Shown: positions 3,489-24,844 of the stretch, one piece after another
How positions within the stretch are numbered: position 1 is the stretch's first letter
Layout: the number at the start of each line of letters is the position of its first letter
DNA from: an uncultured Verrucomicrobia subdivision 3 bacterium
GTDB lineage: Bacteria; Verrucomicrobiota; Verrucomicrobiia; Limisphaerales; UBA11358
Length of the DNA stretch: 45,886 nt
Reading direction: 5' to 3'
Assembly: GCA_903875465.1 (NCBI GenBank)
Contig: CAIQWB010000037.1
Coordinates: 1 to 45,886, forward strand
The notes under the pieces: generated by a model
Database searches by the model: none
The model's input: only the letters and a program-made list of their open reading frames with translations
What the model was told of the DNA's origin: nothing
Position numbers and translations under genes: made by a program

Positions 3489-4082
3489 ATGAAAAAGATC
3501 GCCTTTTGGTTGTTGGCCGGGACCCTTGCCACCAGCGGGATTCGCGCGCAAGACGCGGCCACCCAGCAGCAAATTGATAAATTATCCGGCCAGTTGCAGG
3601 ACATTGTGGAAGCCGAGGCCGCCCAAGGTAAGCGGCTGGACGCCCTCGCACAGGAAATTTCCGAGATCCGCACCAAGGTTAACACCCCCGTCATTAATAA
3701 CAGCGCCAGTGTTGATGACTTGCAGCAATTGGCCGCCAAGGTTAAAGAAATTGATAAGAAACGACAGGAGGACCGCGAGTTGATTTTGCGGAAAATCGAG
3801 GATCTCGGCCGGATCGCCGCCACCCCACCGCCCGTTCGTCGTCATCTGCCCGCCCCACCCAAGGATGAAAACTCCGATACCCCCCCCGCCGCCAACGCCC
3901 AGCAAAACGGTTATGAGTATAAAGTGCAGGAGGGTGACACCCTGTCGGCGATTGCCAAAGCTTATAAAGAAAAAGGGGTCAAGGTCACCACCAGCCAGAT
4001 TTTAAAGGCCAACCCCGGCTTGAGCCCCAATTCACTCTATGTGGGCAAGACCATTTTCATTCCCGATCCCACCGCCAAATAA
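3489..4082 (+). CDS. Secreted coiled-coil protein with C-terminal LysM domain
   Basis: A 197-residue protein. Residues 1-21 form a signal peptide (MKKIAFWLLAGTLATSG, cleavage near IRA-Q). Residues about 24-115 are Gln/Glu/Lys-rich with a heptad-like pattern, probably a coiled coil that makes the protein oligomeric. A Pro-rich linker (about 118-138) leads to a LysM domain (about 143-193) that starts YKVQEGDTLSAIAKAY and ends SLYVGKTIFIP. LysM binds N-acetylglucosamine polymers such as peptidoglycan, so this is probably a periplasmic wall-binding protein; no enzymatic domain is seen. The gene is convergent with uppP, leaving 9 bases between the stops, and no terminator is visible in the gap. 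Confidence 0.9.
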   Translation: MKKIAFWLLAGTLATSGIRAQDAATQQQIDKLSGQLQDIVEAEAAQGKRLDALAQEISEIRTKVNTPVINNSASVDDLQQLAAKVKEIDKKRQEDRELILRKIEDLGRIAATPPPVRRHLPAPPKDENSDTPPAANAQQNGYEYKVQEGDTLSAIAKAYKEKGVKVTTSQILKANPGLSPNSLYVGKTIFIPDPTAK

Positions 4083-4091
4083 CCAGCCCGC

Positions 4092-4904
4092 TCAATGCAT
4101 TAAAAAGGCCAGCATGATAATGCCCAGCACGATGCGGTACCAGCCAAAGGCATTGAACGTGTGCGATTGCACATAGCGCAAGAGCCATTTTACCGCGATA
4201 AACGAGACAATGGAAGCCACGACGGTGGCCAGGATTACCATGCCCCAATCTTCCTTGGGTGCCAGTGGATCGGGGTGGTGCAAGCCTTTAAAGATCTTCA
4301 AACCACCTGCTGCCAGCATCGTGGGAATGCCCACCAGAAAGGAGAATTCCGTCGCCGCCGGCCGGCCCATCCCCAAAAGCAAGGAGAGCATAATGGTGGT
4401 ACCCGAACGCGAGGAACCAGGGAATACCGCGGCAATTAATTGCCCCACCCCCACCGCCACCACCACCGCCCAAGTAATCTCGCTCGCGGGCTTCTTGCCA
4501 CGCACAAACCATTCCACCGCCAGGAAAACACCCCCCCCCAGTAACAAGGCCCACGCCACAGGTGCCAGTTCTTCGGGCAGCTTGAACTTATGTTTGTCCA
4601 ACACGTAACCACCCGCGCAGGTGATCAGGAATGCCACAATAATCTTAATTAAATAGTTTTGCGTTTGCTTGTCGCCGAGTTCAAAGACGAATTTATACAG
4701 GCGCTGCGGAAACAGGGGCAGCACGGCAATCACCGCCCCACATTGAATTACGATGTTAAAAAGGTCGCTCTTGCCCGTGGCCATCCAGTGGGCGGCGATG
4801 AGCAGATGCTCGGTGATGAGTAAGTGCCCTGTGGAAGAAACCGGGAGAAACTCGGTGATCCCCTCGACAATTCCTAAAATTAAAACTGCCAGCCAGTCAT
4901 GCAT
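4092..4904 (-). CDS. uppP: Undecaprenyl-diphosphatase UppP (BacA family)
   Basis: A 270-residue polytopic membrane protein of normal family length. It dephosphorylates undecaprenyl diphosphate to the monophosphate (EC 3.6.1.27), recycling the lipid carrier for peptidoglycan and other envelope polymers. Overproduction in other bacteria gives bacitracin resistance. Both signature regions are intact: EGITEFLPVSSTGH at residues 14-27 (acidic pair E14/E18, S23-S24, H27) and PGSSRSGTT at 162-170 (R166). The rest is a series of hydrophobic helices. The start is ATG at 4904 without a Shine-Dalgarno sequence. Transcription points away from the long empty stretch at 4905-5922. Confidence 0.97.
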   Translation of the reverse strand: MHDWLAVLILGIVEGITEFLPVSSTGHLLITEHLLIAAHWMATGKSDLFNIVIQCGAVIAVLPLFPQRLYKFVFELGDKQTQNYLIKIIVAFLITCAGGYVLDKHKFKLPEELAPVAWALLLGGGVFLAVEWFVRGKKPASEITWAVVVAVGVGQLIAAVFPGSSRSGTTIMLSLLLGMGRPAATEFSFLVGIPTMLAAGGLKIFKGLHHPDPLAPKEDWGMVILATVVASIVSFIAVKWLLRYVQSHTFNAFGWYRIVLGIIMLAFLMH

Positions 4905-18778: not shown

Positions 18779-21700
18779 ATGGACCGCAATCACGAAGAGC
18801 TGTTACTGGCCCTGGCGCTCTCCAAGTCGGCCGGCCTCCGCGCCGCCTTTCTGGAGCGCGAATGTGGCGATGACGCCGCTTTGCGGCAGCGACTGGAGAC
18901 CCGCCTTGGCCTGCACCCAAAGCCAGCCGAGCCGGCCGCCGGAGATGCCACCCAAGTGACACCAACCATTAAGTTAGCCTTGGACGAGGCCCCGGACGAA
19001 GCGGTCGGCCAGACGCTTGGACGCTATAAATTGCTGGAGCGAATCGGCGAAGGTGGCTGCGGGGTGGTTTATGTGGCCGAACAAAGCCAGCCCGTGCGCC
19101 GGCGGGTGGCCCTGAAGGTGATCAAACTGGGCATGGACACGAAAATGGTGGTGGCCCGGTTCGAGGCGGAGCGACAGGCCCTTGCCATGATGGACCACCC
19201 AAACATTGCGCGGGTGTTGGACGCGGGTTCCACCGAGGTGGGTCGCCCATTTTTTGTCATGGAACTGGTGCGCGGCATCCGCATCACCGATTATTGCGAT
19301 CAGAACAACCTGAGTACCCGTGACCGGCTGGACTTGTTCATAAAAGTTTGCCAGGCCATCCAGCATGCGCACCAAAAAGGCATCATTCATCGAGACATCA
19401 AGCCGTCCAACATTCTGGTGACCCTGCACGACGGGGTGCCCGTTCCCAAGGTGATTGATTTTGGGATTGCCAAGGCGGTGGAAGGCAGGCTGACCGATGC
19501 GACGGTTTACACCCAGTTGCATCATTTTATCGGCACCCCCGCGTACATGAGTCCGGAACAGGCGGAAATGAGCGGGCTGGACATTGACACCCGCAGCGAT
19601 ATTTACAGTTTGGGCGTTTTACTTTACGAATTACTCGCGGGCAGCACGCCCTTCGATGGGCACGAGTTGATGTCGCAGGGCATCGACCACATGCGCAAGA
19701 CCATTCGGGAGCGGGATCCCGTGCGCCCCAGCACCCGGTTCGCCACCATGTCGGGCGAAGATTTGACCACGACCGCGCGACGGCGCTCGGCCGACACTTC
19801 AAAATTGATGCATGAGCTGAAAGGCGATCTGGACTGGATTGTCATGAAGTGCTTGGAGAAAGACCGCACCCGCCGATATGAGACCGCCAACGGCCTGGCG
19901 GCCGATCTAAAAAGGCACTTGAACAATGAGCCGGTGATTGCCCGCCCCCCCTCAACCCTTTACCGGCTGCAAAAGGCCATTCGCCGGAACAAGCTGGCCT
20001 TCACGGCAGGTGCAGCCGTGGCAACCGCCCTGCTTCTGGGAATCGTTGCCAGTTCCTGGCAATCCATCCGGGCCGTTCATGCCAGACGCGAAGCGGAAGC
20101 GGCCCAAGCCAGCGAAACGGTGCAGCGCCGCAAGGCGGAGTCCAGTGAGCAGCAGGCACTGGCCGCCCAAGCCAATGAAGCCCGGCTGCGCCAGCAAGCC
20201 GAGGCGGCAGAACTGGCCGCTCGGCAGCGCGCCTACGGGTCGGACATGAACGTGGCCAGTCAAGCGCTGGGTGAGAACAATCTGGGCCGGGCACTGATGT
20301 TACTCAACCGCCAGCGCCCCAGTCCCGGTCAAAAAGATTTACGTGGCTGGGAATGGCGGTACCTGTGGCAGCAAACCCGCAGTGATGCCCGGACCACCTT
20401 ATGGCAAAACCCCAGTGAAATTAAATCACTGGCCTGCTCCGCAGATGGTCAATGGCTGGCAATTGGGGGTCTGGGCAAAGATGGACTGACGCTGTGGGAT
20501 CTGGCGGCCCGGCAGGTTAGCATTCGGCTCGCGCAGAACGAGGAGGACGTGCATTTGGCTTTTTCTCCGTCGGCACCGTTGCTGGCTTATGTTAGCGGCT
20601 TGCAGCAAGGTAATGGCGATATCAACTACGGGCTTCACGTATGGGATGCCCGGAGCCGTCGGGGGATCGCTGACATCGATTTGCAAGCGGATGGGTGTGC
20701 CGGTTTGGCCATGGCTGCCGACGGACAAACGCTGGTCACCTCCACTTTTTCGGGGATAACCAATTACCTCACCCTCTGGCGAATGCCCACCGGTCAGAAG
20801 CTTGCCACATTTCCCACCAGTGGAACTATCTTCGGGCCCATGGCCACTAGTTTTGCGACCACCCCGGATCTGAGTATGGCCGCATTTGGCACACTGGATT
20901 ATGGATTTCAAGTGTTGGACTTGCACACCGGCCGGACTTTGTGGGGTGCCCCGCCCAGGTCCGGATTCTACATGGCCCTGGCTTTTTCGCCCGATGGCAA
21001 AACCCTGGCCACTGCTGAGGGCTTCAATGAATCAGACATCCGACTATGGGACGTGGCTTCCGGGAAGCAAACGGGCCGTTTGATCGGCCACGGTGCCTGG
21101 GTTAACTCGCTGGCTTTCTGGCCGGATGGCAAAACCTTGGCCTCAAGCAGCGCCGACCAAACCATCCGGACTTGGGACCTGGCCAGTTTAACTACCTTGG
21201 AAGTGCTGCGGGGACATCGCTTTGGGGTATGGCGGGTGGCCCTGCTGCCGGATGGTAAAACACTGGTCAGCGGTTGCAAAGACGGCACGGTTTGCCTCTG
21301 GGATACGCACCCTTCGCAACGGCGGCAGCCAGTCACCACCGTTCCTGTTAAAGTGTCCAACTGGTGTTTTGCCCCGGACAGCCTGTCGGTGATCACCCTC
21401 GATTTTCACGGCCAGGTAAGCCGCTGGACCGTGGATGGTTTGCCGGCCAGCGAACCCATAATGGACTTGGGCACTAATTTCGACTTGGTTTTCTATAACA
21501 ACAGCCAGTTTTCCCAGGATGGAACCTTGCTGGCTAATGGTTCCCTCAATGGCACCATCCGGGTTTGGGACCTGGTCCACCATACCTTGCTGCGCCAGTT
21601 TACGAATACCAGTGACATTGTGGTGCCGATCAAATTTCAAGCCGGGGGCAGCCAGTTGCTCACGGCGTCCAAAGTGGGTTATGAAATACATTTGTGGGAT

Positions 21701-22261
21701 CTGACCGAAGGCCGGGAATTGCAAAACTGGCCGTCCATCCACGCGGATGATACTCTGGCCGATTCCCGCGATGAGCATCAGTTTTTGGAGGTGGAAAAGA
21801 ACGGAAAACTGTATTTCAGAAATTTGCAAAACCGCACGCTTGCCGAGACCAATCTCGATTTTAAGGGGGTTTACAATGCCGCTTACTCGTCCAATGGCAA
21901 ACGGTTTGCCGTGGCCAGCACCTATGGCTATGCCCGGGTGTGGGATACCACCGCCTGGCGGGAGGTGGCCACCCTGAATGGCTTTCTCAGCGGGGTCAGT
22001 TCGGTGGTATTTTCCCCAGATGACCTGCGCCTGGCCACGGGCAGTGGCAAGCAACAGGCCTTGAGTCTGTGGGACACCACGAGCTGGCAAAATGTGTTTA
22101 CTCTGGCCGCCCAGGGAGCCGGTTTTTTCAGCACCGATTTCTCCCAAGATGGCAATGCCATTGCCTCGCTTAATGCCGACCGCAACTTGCAAATTTGGCA
22201 TGCCCCTTCCTGGGCCGAAATTGAACAGGCGGAGGCGAGAGAAAAAGCCCCGGTGCCATGA
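18779..22261 (+). CDS. Membrane Ser/Thr protein kinase with C-terminal WD40 propellers
   Basis: An 1160-residue PknB-type kinase. After a short N-terminal helical region (1-75), the kinase domain (about 83-380) has a Gly-rich loop IGEGGCGVVY, catalytic Lys113 in VALKVIK, HRDIKPSN (D206), DFG (227-229) and GTPAYMSPEQ. One transmembrane helix (about 407-427) is followed by an Ala/Glu/Arg-rich coiled coil (about 435-485), then about 13 WD40-like strands with LWD or VWD endings (about 530-1150), enough for two seven-bladed propellers. The topology suggests a cytoplasmic kinase with an exported propeller sensor or scaffold, as is frequent in Planctomycetes and Verrucomicrobia. The start is ATG at 18779. 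It is the first gene of a co-directional run: the papain-like gene begins 57 bases after its stop. The substrates are unknown. Confidence 0.93.
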   Translation: MDRNHEELLLALALSKSAGLRAAFLERECGDDAALRQRLETRLGLHPKPAEPAAGDATQVTPTIKLALDEAPDEAVGQTLGRYKLLERIGEGGCGVVYVAEQSQPVRRRVALKVIKLGMDTKMVVARFEAERQALAMMDHPNIARVLDAGSTEVGRPFFVMELVRGIRITDYCDQNNLSTRDRLDLFIKVCQAIQHAHQKGIIHRDIKPSNILVTLHDGVPVPKVIDFGIAKAVEGRLTDATVYTQLHHFIGTPAYMSPEQAEMSGLDIDTRSDIYSLGVLLYELLAGSTPFDGHELMSQGIDHMRKTIRERDPVRPSTRFATMSGEDLTTTARRRSADTSKLMHELKGDLDWIVMKCLEKDRTRRYETANGLAADLKRHLNNEPVIARPPSTLYRLQKAIRRNKLAFTAGAAVATALLLGIVASSWQSIRAVHARREAEAAQASETVQRRKAESSEQQALAAQANEARLRQQAEAAELAARQRAYGSDMNVASQALGENNLGRALMLLNRQRPSPGQKDLRGWEWRYLWQQTRSDARTTLWQNPSEIKSLACSADGQWLAIGGLGKDGLTLWDLAARQVSIRLAQNEEDVHLAFSPSAPLLAYVSGLQQGNGDINYGLHVWDARSRRGIADIDLQADGCAGLAMAADGQTLVTSTFSGITNYLTLWRMPTGQKLATFPTSGTIFGPMATSFATTPDLSMAAFGTLDYGFQVLDLHTGRTLWGAPPRSGFYMALAFSPDGKTLATAEGFNESDIRLWDVASGKQTGRLIGHGAWVNSLAFWPDGKTLASSSADQTIRTWDLASLTTLEVLRGHRFGVWRVALLPDGKTLVSGCKDGTVCLWDTHPSQRRQPVTTVPVKVSNWCFAPDSLSVITLDFHGQVSRWTVDGLPASEPIMDLGTNFDLVFYNNSQFSQDGTLLANGSLNGTIRVWDLVHHTLLRQFTNTSDIVVPIKFQAGGSQLLTASKVGYEIHLWDLTEGRELQNWPSIHADDTLADSRDEHQFLEVEKNGKLYFRNLQNRTLAETNLDFKGVYNAAYSSNGKRFAVASTYGYARVWDTTAWREVATLNGFLSGVSSVVFSPDDLRLATGSGKQQALSLWDTTSWQNVFTLAAQGAGFFSTDFSQDGNAIASLNADRNLQIWHAPSWAEIEQAEAREKAPVP

Positions 22262-22318: not shown

Positions 22319-23119
22319 ATGAATCCCACCATGACCCAGCCAGTGACCGGCCGACTCGGTCGCCTGCCGCGCACCTATAATCCCCGGGTGCCGCACCTCA
22401 GCGCACTGGTCGCAGGAAAACCTCTTCCCCCGCCGCCAGTGGCGGTGGATTGGACCAAAGGCATGCCTGCCAGCCTGGGTATGATGTTGAATGACCGATT
22501 GGATAACTGCACCTGTGCGGCCATCTACCACGCCCTGCAAGTATGGAGTTTCAATGCCCGCAGCCGGATGTTGAACCTGTCCGATGCGGAGGTAGAACAG
22601 CTTTATATCCAAGCATGCGGATACCAACCGGCAAGCAAAGGCGAAGGCCCCGGCGCCACCGCCCAGCAGGTCCTTTCCTATGTGCTTAAACATGGCGTGC
22701 CCACGGGATCAAACACCAATCCCCGCCAGAAAATTGCAGCCTTTGTCGAGTTGGATCCCCGCCATTTGGATGATGTGAAACGGAGCATTCACGAATGCGG
22801 TCTGGTATATATTGGATTTAACTTACCCCAAAGCGTGGCCCCCCCGGGCACGCAGTCACCGCCAGTATGGAAGTATATTCCCGGGAAGTCCACCAGCATT
22901 GGCGGTCACGCGGTCGTGCTGGCGGGGTACGACGTGCATGGTGCTCGCTTCATTTCCTGGGGCCAGTATTTCACGATGACCTGGGAATTTTTCGCCCAAT
23001 ATGTCGAGGAGGCTTACGCCATCGCCGCCCCAGAATGGGTGGAACAGAAAGGAACCACCCCGGCCGGGCTGAATCTGGCGCAATTGGAAAGCCAAATGGC
23101 TGCACTCAAGGAACAATAA
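22319..23119 (+). CDS. Papain-like cysteine peptidase homologue
   Basis: 266 residues from the ATG at 22319. The ATG at 22331 is equally good (262 residues); a GTG at 22283 is unlikely. Numbering from 22331: MLNDRLDNCTCAA places the candidate nucleophile at Cys60 (or Cys62) at the start of a helix, GGHAVVLAGYD gives His193, and ISWGQYFTMTWEFF matches the strand that in papain holds the catalytic Asn before Ser-Trp-Gly. Here that position is Ile208. This is the pattern of a bacterial C1-like family with conserved N-D-x-x-x-x-C and (S/T)-W-G motifs. There is no signal peptide, so it is cytoplasmic. It lies 48 bases upstream of the LanKC-like gene. A role as a leader peptidase for the small peptide downstream is inferred only from position; it could be a non-catalytic binding protein. 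Confidence 0.75.
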   Translation: MNPTMTQPVTGRLGRLPRTYNPRVPHLSALVAGKPLPPPPVAVDWTKGMPASLGMMLNDRLDNCTCAAIYHALQVWSFNARSRMLNLSDAEVEQLYIQACGYQPASKGEGPGATAQQVLSYVLKHGVPTGSNTNPRQKIAAFVELDPRHLDDVKRSIHECGLVYIGFNLPQSVAPPGTQSPPVWKYIPGKSTSIGGHAVVLAGYDVHGARFISWGQYFTMTWEFFAQYVEEAYAIAAPEWVEQKGTTPAGLNLAQLESQMAALKEQ

Positions 23120-23167
23120 TTTCCCGGATGCAGGCCTGCCATCTCTCCGGAACCCCATCAACCCACG

Positions 23168-24589
23168 ATGCCGCCCAGGCGACCACAACCGTTGCTCCCC
23201 AACCAAATCGCCCGGCGCTGGGAACAAGAATGGCAACGCCTTTCACAGTCCAGCCTGCCGATCCGGCCTCAAGGCTCGATCTGGTGCTTTAGTCGGCATC
23301 GAAATCGCGATGATCCCCCGCAGGGTTGGAAGCTGCACATCTCCGCCACTATCCTTTCGGCCTGCCAGATATTGGAGCTGGTCAGTCCCTGCTTGAAGCG
23401 GCATCAGGCTTTGTTCAAAGCCCCCCAAACCCTGGCGGAGCTGCACAAATTAAACGCGGGTGTGGAATACGGTTTCAGCCAGGTTGGCAAATTCATCACC
23501 GTCTATCCTCGTTCCACCGAGTTGGCGTTAAGCCTCGCGGCAGAATTGCACCATCTCACAGCTGGCTTGCCAGCACCCAGTGTGGCATATGACGAACCCT
23601 GGCGGGCCCGATCCTGTGTCCATTACCGTTATGGTCAGTTTTATTTTGACCAAACAATCAAAGTGGGCAACCAATCCGTGCCTGCCATTGCCCGCCCGGA
23701 TGGCCGGCTCGTGCCATGCCTTCGGGAACCGCGTGCCGCCGTGCCCCAATGGCTAACCGACCCCTTCCGTCCGCGCCAATCTGCCACCCCAAAAATGGCC
23801 AGCACGCCCTTGGAAACAGATTACGGAAATTATGAGGCAATTGTCCAGCGGGGGCGGGGCGGAGTGTACCGGGCTCTGGATTTAAACTCCGTGCCGCCAA
23901 AAGTGTGCATCCTCAAGGAAGGTCGGCGACATGGCGAAACGGACTGGCTGGGTCGCGACGGGGTTGAACGTATCCGGCGCGAGGCGATATTCCTCAAAGC
24001 CATTGCTCCCGCGTGCCCGGGAGTGCCGCGGGTCTCGAAAACCTTCCGCGCTAACGCATGCTTTTACCTGGTGATGGAACACTGCGTGGGACGTAACTTG
24101 CATGCGCTCATTATCAGCCGGGAGCGCATATCTCCGAGGCGCAGCCTGACTTACTGCCGGGAGATGGCCCGCATTATGGCGGATATTCACGCCGCTGGCT
24201 GGGCCTGGCTTGATTGCAAACCGGGCAACTTTTTGTGCGGTCGCAATTACCGTTTGTGGGCGATTGATTTTGAGGGTGCCTGCCGGCAGGACAAGCCCGA
24301 TTCCCTGAGGGTGGTCACGCCGGGTTACGCCCCGCCCAAGTGGGCATTAACCAATCCACAAGCGGACGATTTATTTGCTTTGGGAACTTCCTTCGCACAG
24401 TTAATTGCGAGGAGTAATAAGCCCCCGGAACAACTCAGGGCGATTTTTGCCAATGGCACAAAGGTGCCTCAATCCGTGTTAAGGCTCATTCGGAGCTTGC
24501 GGCATGCCGATCCCCACTTTCGCCCCACCGCCCGTCAGGCACAACACTTACTCGAAAAAATGCTTGGCCCGGCAAAGATTAATCATTGA
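23168..24589 (+). CDS. LanKC-type lyase-kinase without cyclase domain (class III lanthipeptide synthetase-like)
   Basis: A 473-residue protein. The N-terminal part (about 45-165) matches the lyase region of class III lanthipeptide synthetases: QGWKLHISAT holds the K55-x-H57 pair typical of phosphothreonine lyases, Lys84 follows in ALFKAP, and then SQVGKFITVYP (K108) and HYRYGQF. The kinase part (about 220-465) has the loop RGRGGVYRA, Lys250, a DxxxxN catalytic loop WLDCKPGNF (D349, N354), the LanKC-type IDFEGA in place of DFG (D367), and TPGYAPPK. In LanKC enzymes the kinase phosphorylates Ser/Thr of a precursor and the lyase removes phosphate to give dehydro-residues. A LanC-like cyclase domain (another ~350-400 residues) should follow but is absent; the protein stops cleanly. 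The start is ATG at 23168. The small peptide gene begins 54 bases after the stop. Confidence 0.85.
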   Translation: MPPRRPQPLLPNQIARRWEQEWQRLSQSSLPIRPQGSIWCFSRHRNRDDPPQGWKLHISATILSACQILELVSPCLKRHQALFKAPQTLAELHKLNAGVEYGFSQVGKFITVYPRSTELALSLAAELHHLTAGLPAPSVAYDEPWRARSCVHYRYGQFYFDQTIKVGNQSVPAIARPDGRLVPCLREPRAAVPQWLTDPFRPRQSATPKMASTPLETDYGNYEAIVQRGRGGVYRALDLNSVPPKVCILKEGRRHGETDWLGRDGVERIRREAIFLKAIAPACPGVPRVSKTFRANACFYLVMEHCVGRNLHALIISRERISPRRSLTYCREMARIMADIHAAGWAWLDCKPGNFLCGRNYRLWAIDFEGACRQDKPDSLRVVTPGYAPPKWALTNPQADDLFALGTSFAQLIARSNKPPEQLRAIFANGTKVPQSVLRLIRSLRHADPHFRPTARQAQHLLEKMLGPAKINH

Positions 24590-24643
24590 CATAGTGTGAG
24601 TAAGTTGAAAAGGTTCGTTGAACGTCCGACTAACTACAAAACT

Positions 24644-24844
24644 ATGGCTGCTCCTAAGAAAAAAACACCGGCAAAATCCGCTGCTAAAAAAACCTCAACG
24701 GCGAAAAAAGCACCCGCCAAGGCAAGTGCCAAAGTCCAACTCAAGAATTTAAAGCCCAAAAAGCCCCTGGTCTTGAAGGCCAGAGCCGTGTCCACGCCCC
24801 AATCCGTGGTCTGCGCTGCACCCAGCAGCAAAACTCGGTCCTAA
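24644..24844 (+). CDS. Small Lys/Ala-rich peptide, candidate RiPP precursor
   Basis: 66 residues from the ATG at 24644; an in-frame GTG at 24596 would give 82. Residues 1-30 are a Lys/Ala/Pro repeat (PKKKTPAKSAAKK) like the tail of histone H1. Residues 31-45 (VQLKNLKPKKPLVLK) loosely recall the L-x-L-Q-x-L leader motif of class III lanthipeptides. The tail ARAVSTPQSVVCAAPSSK has Thr51-x-x-Ser54-x-x-Cys57, which fits the Ser/Thr-x2-Ser-x(2-5)-Cys pattern that becomes labionin; it is the only Cys. It directly follows the LanKC-like gene on the same strand. A TTGACA hexamer (24586-24591) overlaps the upstream stop, but no good -10 follows it. The alternative is a histone-like DNA-binding protein. 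The coding call is fairly safe; the precursor role is inference. Confidence 0.6.
   Translation: MAAPKKKTPAKSAAKKTSTAKKAPAKASAKVQLKNLKPKKPLVLKARAVSTPQSVVCAAPSSKTRS

Follow-up and report, generated by a model that had tools for sequence, protein, structure and literature searches.

A two-domain lyase-kinase without a detectable cyclase and its candidate peptide substrate in an uncultured Verrucomicrobia bacterium

A 45,886-nucleotide contig of an uncultured Verrucomicrobia subdivision 3 bacterium (CAIQWB010000037.1, assembly GCA_903875465.1), referred to here as the 45.9-kb window, encodes a 473-residue enzyme composed of a RamC_N lyase domain and a Ser/Thr kinase domain. The enzyme resembles the lanthipeptide synthetases LanL and LanKC without their cyclase, and it belongs to a clade of cyclase-less enzymes with small-peptide neighbours. 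We propose, with a probability of about 0.6, that the enzyme is a stand-alone Ser/Thr dehydratase, that its product is dehydrated and largely uncyclised, and that a Lys-rich peptide of 66 residues encoded downstream is its likeliest substrate. The two genes are located on the plus strand of the window, to which all coordinates of its genes refer:

23168-24589, plus strand: two-domain lyase-kinase (RamC_N and kinase) without a cyclase, 473 residues
24644-24844, plus strand: Lys-rich peptide, candidate precursor, 66 residues, inside an open reading frame (ORF) of 82 residues able to start at GTG 24596

The enzyme contains lyase and kinase domains and no LanC

An earlier note, made from the sequence alone, had described the enzyme as the lyase and kinase halves of a class III lanthipeptide synthetase without LanC. 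Pfam, NCBIfam, residue alignment and Foldseek agree with this description. Profile searches of 23168-24589 found similarity to the N-terminal and kinase parts of LanKC and LanL: RamC_N (PF25816) matches residues 35-207 (E 1.4e-40) and Pkinase (PF00069) residues 262-460 (E 2.1e-17), with the glycine-rich loop starting at about residue 226. The NCBIfam model of LanL, 851 positions long, matches between positions 6 and 456 (E 1e-90), and that of LanKC, 833 positions long, between positions 40 and 426 (E 5.5e-72). Both scores are far under the full-length cut-offs, as is expected if the cyclase half is absent. The chain ends at residue 473 with no C-terminal LanC-like domain, and the genome of the window, which is 96% complete, contains no match to LANC_like (PF05147) at E 0.01.

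The motifs K55-x-H57 (GWKLH) and IDFEGA, to which the earlier note had pointed, are both present in the enzyme. Eight lyase residues of ThurKC have been named (PMC10604976). Seven of the eight are identical in the enzyme by manual count on a structure-sequence alignment with ThurKC and CuvL: K65, H67, K94, K117, D152, R163 and R191 of ThurKC correspond to K55, H57, K84, K108, D142, R154 and R186, and the eighth, K108 of ThurKC, corresponds to Gly98. The seven residues are invariant in an alignment of 20 two-domain sequences, and so are K250, E272, D349, K351 and D367 of the kinase domain, which has the K, E, D and DFx residues of a Ser/Thr kinase.

The AlphaFold model of the enzyme, calculated with the 20 two-domain sequences as input, has a mean predicted local distance difference test score (pLDDT) of 83.6 and a predicted template modelling score of 0.54. 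The top Foldseek matches of the model are CuvL (8cav, E 1.4e-26) and ThurKC (8sam, E 6.6e-25), with ordinary kinases behind them. The query TM-scores of these two matches are just 0.37-0.44 and the root-mean-square deviations 16-17; therefore, the model does not reproduce the domain arrangement of CuvL and ThurKC. The 473-residue enzyme is above chance as a finding.

Comparison with characterised dehydratases

LanL enzymes such as VenL and CuvL share with the enzyme the order of RamC_N lyase and Ser/Thr kinase and provide both its best NCBIfam match and its best structural match. They are described as three-domain proteins (PMC4159009) of about 850 residues, whereas the enzyme lacks the C-terminal LanC-like cyclase. 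Lyase and kinase are also shared with the LanKC enzyme ThurKC, which differs in having a metal-free cyclase domain; furthermore, the 66-residue peptide contains V-Q-L-K-N-L (V-x-L-x-x-L) and no clear LxLQ when checked for LxLQxL. Without the cyclase that characterises both LanL and LanKC, the enzyme should act like their dehydratase half. The closest experimental parallel is VenL-deltaC, in which VenL was cut down to lyase and kinase. This construct has the same domain content and was a monofunctional peptide dehydratase in vitro, dehydrating VenA four times with no cyclised product detectable (PMC2843593). VenL-deltaC is laboratory-made, whereas the form in the window occurs in nature and has been retained across a clade.

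Dehydration by a kinase and a phosphate lyase without LanKC or LanL is known from class V lanthipeptides, thioamitides and kintamdin (LanK/LanY, KinD/KinC; PMC9486802, PMC9415263). In these systems the aminoglycoside phosphotransferase-like kinase and the HopA1-like lyase are separate proteins, and a decarboxylase and another kinase-like protein accompany them. In contrast, the enzyme of the window is one fused RamC_N-kinase chain, so it does not fall within class V. No natural cyclase-less LanKC or LanL enzyme, from Verrucomicrobiota or elsewhere, was found among the titles and abstract openings listed in literature searches, which excluded most subscription journals, and the parts covered of one review name no cyclase-free lyase-kinase fusion (PMC10880069). 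The statement of the earlier note that no such system had been described from Verrucomicrobiota holds for the literature searched; relatives of the enzyme are nevertheless present in Verrucomicrobiota genomes. A large lanthipeptide survey started from the LanC-like domain and dropped clusters without a match to its profiles (PMC7268733); a search of this kind would miss cyclase-less enzymes.

Two-domain enzymes form a clade

When the genome collection was scanned by pattern, the single protein as query found no relative of the enzyme and a two-row alignment found at least 429. The set was reduced to the best 80, and 24 of these were examined. The ORF is of two-domain size in 13 of the 24 (L043-L053, L058 and L069, with the gene in L053 cut by the contig end) and 904-1073 residues long in the remaining 11. 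RamC_N was found in 2 of 387 genomes sampled from the phylum of the window and in 1 of 293 from its order, the genome of the window itself. Among 49 genomes of its genus, the match of the window is the only one that starts before residue 176, and the others are kinase-domain matches. In the order of genome G441 (record titled Chthoniobacterales), 18 of 213 genomes contain RamC_N. The 19 matches there comprise 16 in ORFs of 412-521 residues and three fragments of 124-264 residues, with none of three-domain size. Six of 396 genomes sampled from the phylum of genome G437 (titled Pyrinomonadaceae) contain RamC_N, of two-domain size in four and of 896-963 residues in three, one genome having both.

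In an IQ-TREE phylogeny of 41 rows, 27 two-domain rows, including L053 and L155 that are cut by contig ends, form one clade with support of 100/98. Twelve rows of three-domain size (including L063 and L070) and the pair L058/L069 are placed outside it. The enzyme of the window groups with L146, L152, L153 and L155 in a five-row subclade supported by 100/100. The record titles in the two-domain clade represent at least three phyla, and one member, L052, is titled Propionibacteriales. The supported cyclase-less clade covers Verrucomicrobiota, Acidobacteriota and Cyanobacteria. No relative of the enzyme was found among 409 stretches of IMG/VR matching one of two peptide patterns. The enzymes of L069 (5387-7407, titled Chlamydiales) and L058 (5409-7302, Shimazuella) are other two-domain-size proteins with a protein of 103-135 residues encoded directly upstream; L069 also has a peptide with weak matches, below cut-off, to LigA (5.8e-4) and Frankia_peptide (0.0049).

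Two kinds of small peptides accompany the clade

Peptides of about 96-135 residues with a leader-like N-terminus, which we call type A, are encoded upstream of the enzymes L043-L053. One Cys column is common to all 12 aligned peptides, a set that includes two at L050 and one at L038, the same place as L049. The ribosomally synthesised and post-translationally modified peptide (RiPP) model Os1348 of the nitrile hydratase leader peptide (NHLP) clan matches one of these peptides, weakly and below cut-off (2.3e-4), and a possible NHLP-like leader of type A can be regarded as a lead. A type-A model recovers the 11 genomes used to build it and detects a peptide upstream of the enzyme, at E of 1.3e-5 or better, in 10 of 16 loci outside its training set; L142, a 17th locus, represents the same genome as L048 and was excluded from the trial. 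Two more of the 16, L151 (E 0.23) and L158 (no model match), have a type-A peptide by eye only, and both carry the type-A label in the tree. The other four are the closest relatives of the enzyme of the window, and one of them, L155, has no sequence upstream of the gene. At E 10 the type-A model has no match in the window, nor any in its genome that could be a trans-encoded precursor.

The cores of type-A peptides vary, with 24 Thr each in two of them. These two Thr-rich, precursor-like peptides lie beside two-domain enzymes at 5395-5715 of L043 (a cyanobacterium) and 5611-5949 of L052, and each has one Cys. A gene for an animal-type haem peroxidase is located upstream of the type-A peptide and enzyme in L044, L045, L046/L140, L047 and L138/L173 (PF03098 at 4.5e-25 in L044 and relatives by tblastn in the other four). 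All five genomes come from the Acidobacteriota search or scan. The peroxidase is a possible tailoring partner.

Peptides of another kind, type B, are found near the four closest relatives of the enzyme. They are short and Lys-rich; most contain [LIVM]x[DNE]LxPxxDxxGG, and the others a motif close to it. Eleven distinct type-B peptides were collected (L146/L162, L152/L161/L163, L153/L164 and L165). They are encoded upstream or downstream of the enzyme gene and on the same or the opposite strand, and the distance in L165, as located by regular expression, exceeds 1 kb. Ser or Thr follows the leader in each of the 11, and nine have no Cys in that part by manual reading. Six type-B peptides and the 66-residue peptide have no Pfam match, and no NCBIfam match better than E 0.09. 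In L163, a second two-domain gene (1431-2595) is split into three ORFs and lies beside an intact one of opposite direction and a type-B peptide.

A model built from the 11 type-B peptides, with that of the window left out, matches 52 of the 213 genomes from the G441 order, and 11 of the 18 RamC_N genomes of this order are among the 52. Twenty of the matching regions were fetched. Motif peptides were found by regular expression in 19 of them, and relatives of a large protein of L164 in 13, one of which is partial. The L164 protein contains cyclic nucleotide-binding, C39 peptidase and ATP-binding cassette (ABC) domains, and is accompanied by an HlyD-type protein and a sigma-54 activator, identified by scans in L205 and L164, respectively. 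The leader often occurs without the enzyme, and the C39-ABC exporter is present in 13 of the 20 regions; therefore, the type-B leader is probably mainly a double-glycine export signal. Among two-domain regions, the exporter occurs in L163 and L164 only, both of type B. Export clusters of the order of G441 with Lys-rich double-glycine peptides were recorded in L205, L210, L213-L215 and L217-L224, with no such peptide by regular expression in L222.

Of the 11 distinct peptides near type-B enzymes, 7 contain the exact string LSDLTPKKD, versus none of 44 distinct peptides in the remaining fetched loci. Some of these remaining loci come from genomes with the enzyme elsewhere, the loci are a part of the type-B-model matches, and shared ancestry makes the contrast weaker than it looks.

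The 66-residue peptide as the likely substrate

The 66-residue peptide contains 16 Lys and the motif VQLKNLKPKK, followed by T-x2-S-x2-C. The motif VQLKNLKPKK sits after a Lys-rich stretch containing S-A-K, like KSAKTRLSDLTPKK. The earlier note had the peptide ending with the T-x2-S-x2-C motif; the motif is present, but nine residues (AAPSSKTRS) continue beyond it. The type-B model, built without this peptide, scores it at 13.7 bits, a value reached by 1 of 5000 shuffles. Window and background loci, 1.0 Mb together, contain 17 Lys-rich ORFs, of which the peptide scores best, and it is the only one of 10,933 short ORFs there with a loose form of the motif. Each of the four nearest relatives of the enzyme has Lys-rich peptides encoded on its contig, and this kinship makes the suggestion of the earlier note that the small peptide is a precursor plausible.

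Several observations weigh against this assignment. The regular expression for the loose motif was written after the 66-residue peptide had been seen, and the type-B model misses the peptide in a search of the whole genome at E 0.1. The double-glycine peptides of the order of G441 are likewise short and Lys-rich, with LxDLxPxxD leaders near C39-ABC exporters; in contrast, the 66-residue peptide lacks Gly-Gly and has just a short motif in common with type B, and no relative of the L164 exporter was found within the 45.9-kb window, to which that search was confined. The peptide is encoded downstream of the enzyme here and upstream in the larger clade. Homologues of the peptide away from a LanKC-like gene had been named in the earlier note as speaking against its proposal, and this is half borne out: 41 of the 52 genomes with type-B-like leader peptides have no RamC_N match, whereas the LSDLTPKKD subtype was found near synthetases only, among the loci fetched.

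The 66-residue ORF, the length of which by itself is no evidence for a gene, could have arisen by chance or encode a histone-like protein, while a working dehydratase or kinase modifies a peptide encoded elsewhere or a cellular protein. The Lys/Ala/Pro-rich composition of the peptide, its downstream place, the lack of a Pfam match, NCBIfam matches of E 0.52 and worse only, and the failed whole-genome search agree with this explanation. The result of the shuffles, the rank of the peptide among the Lys-rich ORFs and the peptides near the four closest relatives speak against it, and we consider it unlikely. If the enzyme works, the odds that the 66-residue peptide is its substrate are about two in three, judged from sequence comparison.

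Proposed reaction and expected product

Computation shows the domain make-up of the enzyme, its conserved catalytic residues, the lack of a detectable LanC and its place in a cyclase-less clade whose members have small peptides nearby; from there on, its activity and substrate, the fate of the single Cys, leader removal and the function of the product are inferred. The N-terminal half of the 66-residue peptide with VQLKNLKPKK would be recognised as a leader, and the C-terminal stretch with Ser, Thr and Cys would be the core. This proposal follows from class III systems, in which a leader helix binds the N-lobe of the kinase and the LELQL motif is critical (PMC10604976). The kinase domain would phosphorylate Ser and Thr of the small precursor in an ATP-dependent manner, and the RamC_N lyase would eliminate the phosphate by beta-elimination, yielding dehydroalanine or dehydrobutyrine. 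Without a cyclase, the product would be mostly an uncyclised dehydrated peptide.

Because no cyclase was detected, a thioether ring (lanthionine, methyllanthionine or labionin) is unlikely in the product. The term lanthipeptide used in the earlier note is unsupported, since the genome has no LANC_like match and 9 of 11 related peptides are free of Cys past the leader. The peptide could still be a true lanthipeptide if the Cys of T-x2-S-x2-C added to a dehydro residue with the help of a distant cyclase or of the kinase domain, or spontaneously. The presence of this motif, the Cys column in 12 of 12 type-A peptides and the published kinase-fold cyclases that form aminovinylcysteine (AviCys; PMC12291118) are in favour of ring formation. 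However, the same absence of LANC_like and of Cys in most type-B peptides, and the inability of VenL without its cyclase to make a detectable ring in vitro (PMC2843593), render it improbable. Ring formation and an unrelated 66-residue peptide are not mutually exclusive. It is very improbable that the enzyme is a decaying remnant of a three-domain LanKC or LanL that lost cyclase and function, as could be argued from the lone RamC_N match in 293 genomes of the order and the broken two-domain gene in L163, since its reading frame is open, its catalytic residues are retained and the same architecture occurs throughout a clade titled in at least three phyla.

Genes upstream of the enzyme

Two further genes precede that of the enzyme:

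22319-23119, plus strand: papain-like protein, 266 residues, counted from the second start of a 278-residue ORF
18779-22261, plus strand: Ser/Thr kinase with WD40 repeats, identified by profile scan

The papain-like gene, the enzyme gene and the peptide gene were found as a same-strand row within 2.5 kb with gaps of 48 and 54 bases, just as the earlier note had reported. The WD40-repeat kinase gene stops only 57 bases 5' of the papain-like gene on the same strand, so the run may exceed three genes, and it may be co-transcribed with them. Promoter and terminator scans were uninformative, with counts under the shuffled means.

The papain-like protein had been interpreted as a papain-fold enzyme that could remove the leader. 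The fold is weakly supported: a four-row profile matches the 'Cysteine protease' 3ois of the Protein Data Bank at E 2e-5, but the single sequence reaches only 0.78 and has no Pfam match at E 1. The four aligned sequences keep Cys64, His197 and W214-G215, and the position before S-W-G that we take to be the Asn of papain is Ile or Leu in them. The AlphaFold model (pLDDT 43) is unusable. A role as leader peptidase is not supported and is improbable. The protein belongs to phage family phrog_19005 (E 7.7e-24), the function of which is unassigned. In a tblastn search at E 1e-3 of 56 loci containing two-domain genes or papain homologues, the gene was found only in the window and two homologue regions, and beside no other two-domain enzyme. 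Homologues occur in 3 of the 49 genomes of the genus, and the other two (G002 and G048) have no match to the lyase half of the enzyme. The papain-like gene is most likely a neighbour and not part of the system. A 50% homologue is encoded at 3761-4531 of the IMG/VR phage-like contig L225 and belongs to the same phage family. Its neighbours, as read by eye, are presumably a portal and head-morphogenesis pair on one side and a prohead-protease-like protein on the other.

Implications for RiPP biosynthesis

We tentatively suggest, at somewhat short of an even chance, that the clade represents a separate type of RiPP, in which natural lyase-kinase fusions of three phyla act on two precursor families of their own and yield open-chain, electrophilic dehydrated peptides. 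One family would combine an NHLP-like leader with a shared Cys and, in some members, poly-Thr cores; the other would consist of Lys-rich LSDLTPKKD..GG peptides exported by C39 proteins. The 66-residue peptide would be a divergent precursor that lost Gly-Gly. If the proposal is correct, the clade would be a natural and widespread source of peptides with open dehydroamino acids, and the single-chain dehydratase would be useful in the laboratory. The clade could also be used to test whether the cyclase was acquired by three-domain synthetases or lost by two-domain enzymes.

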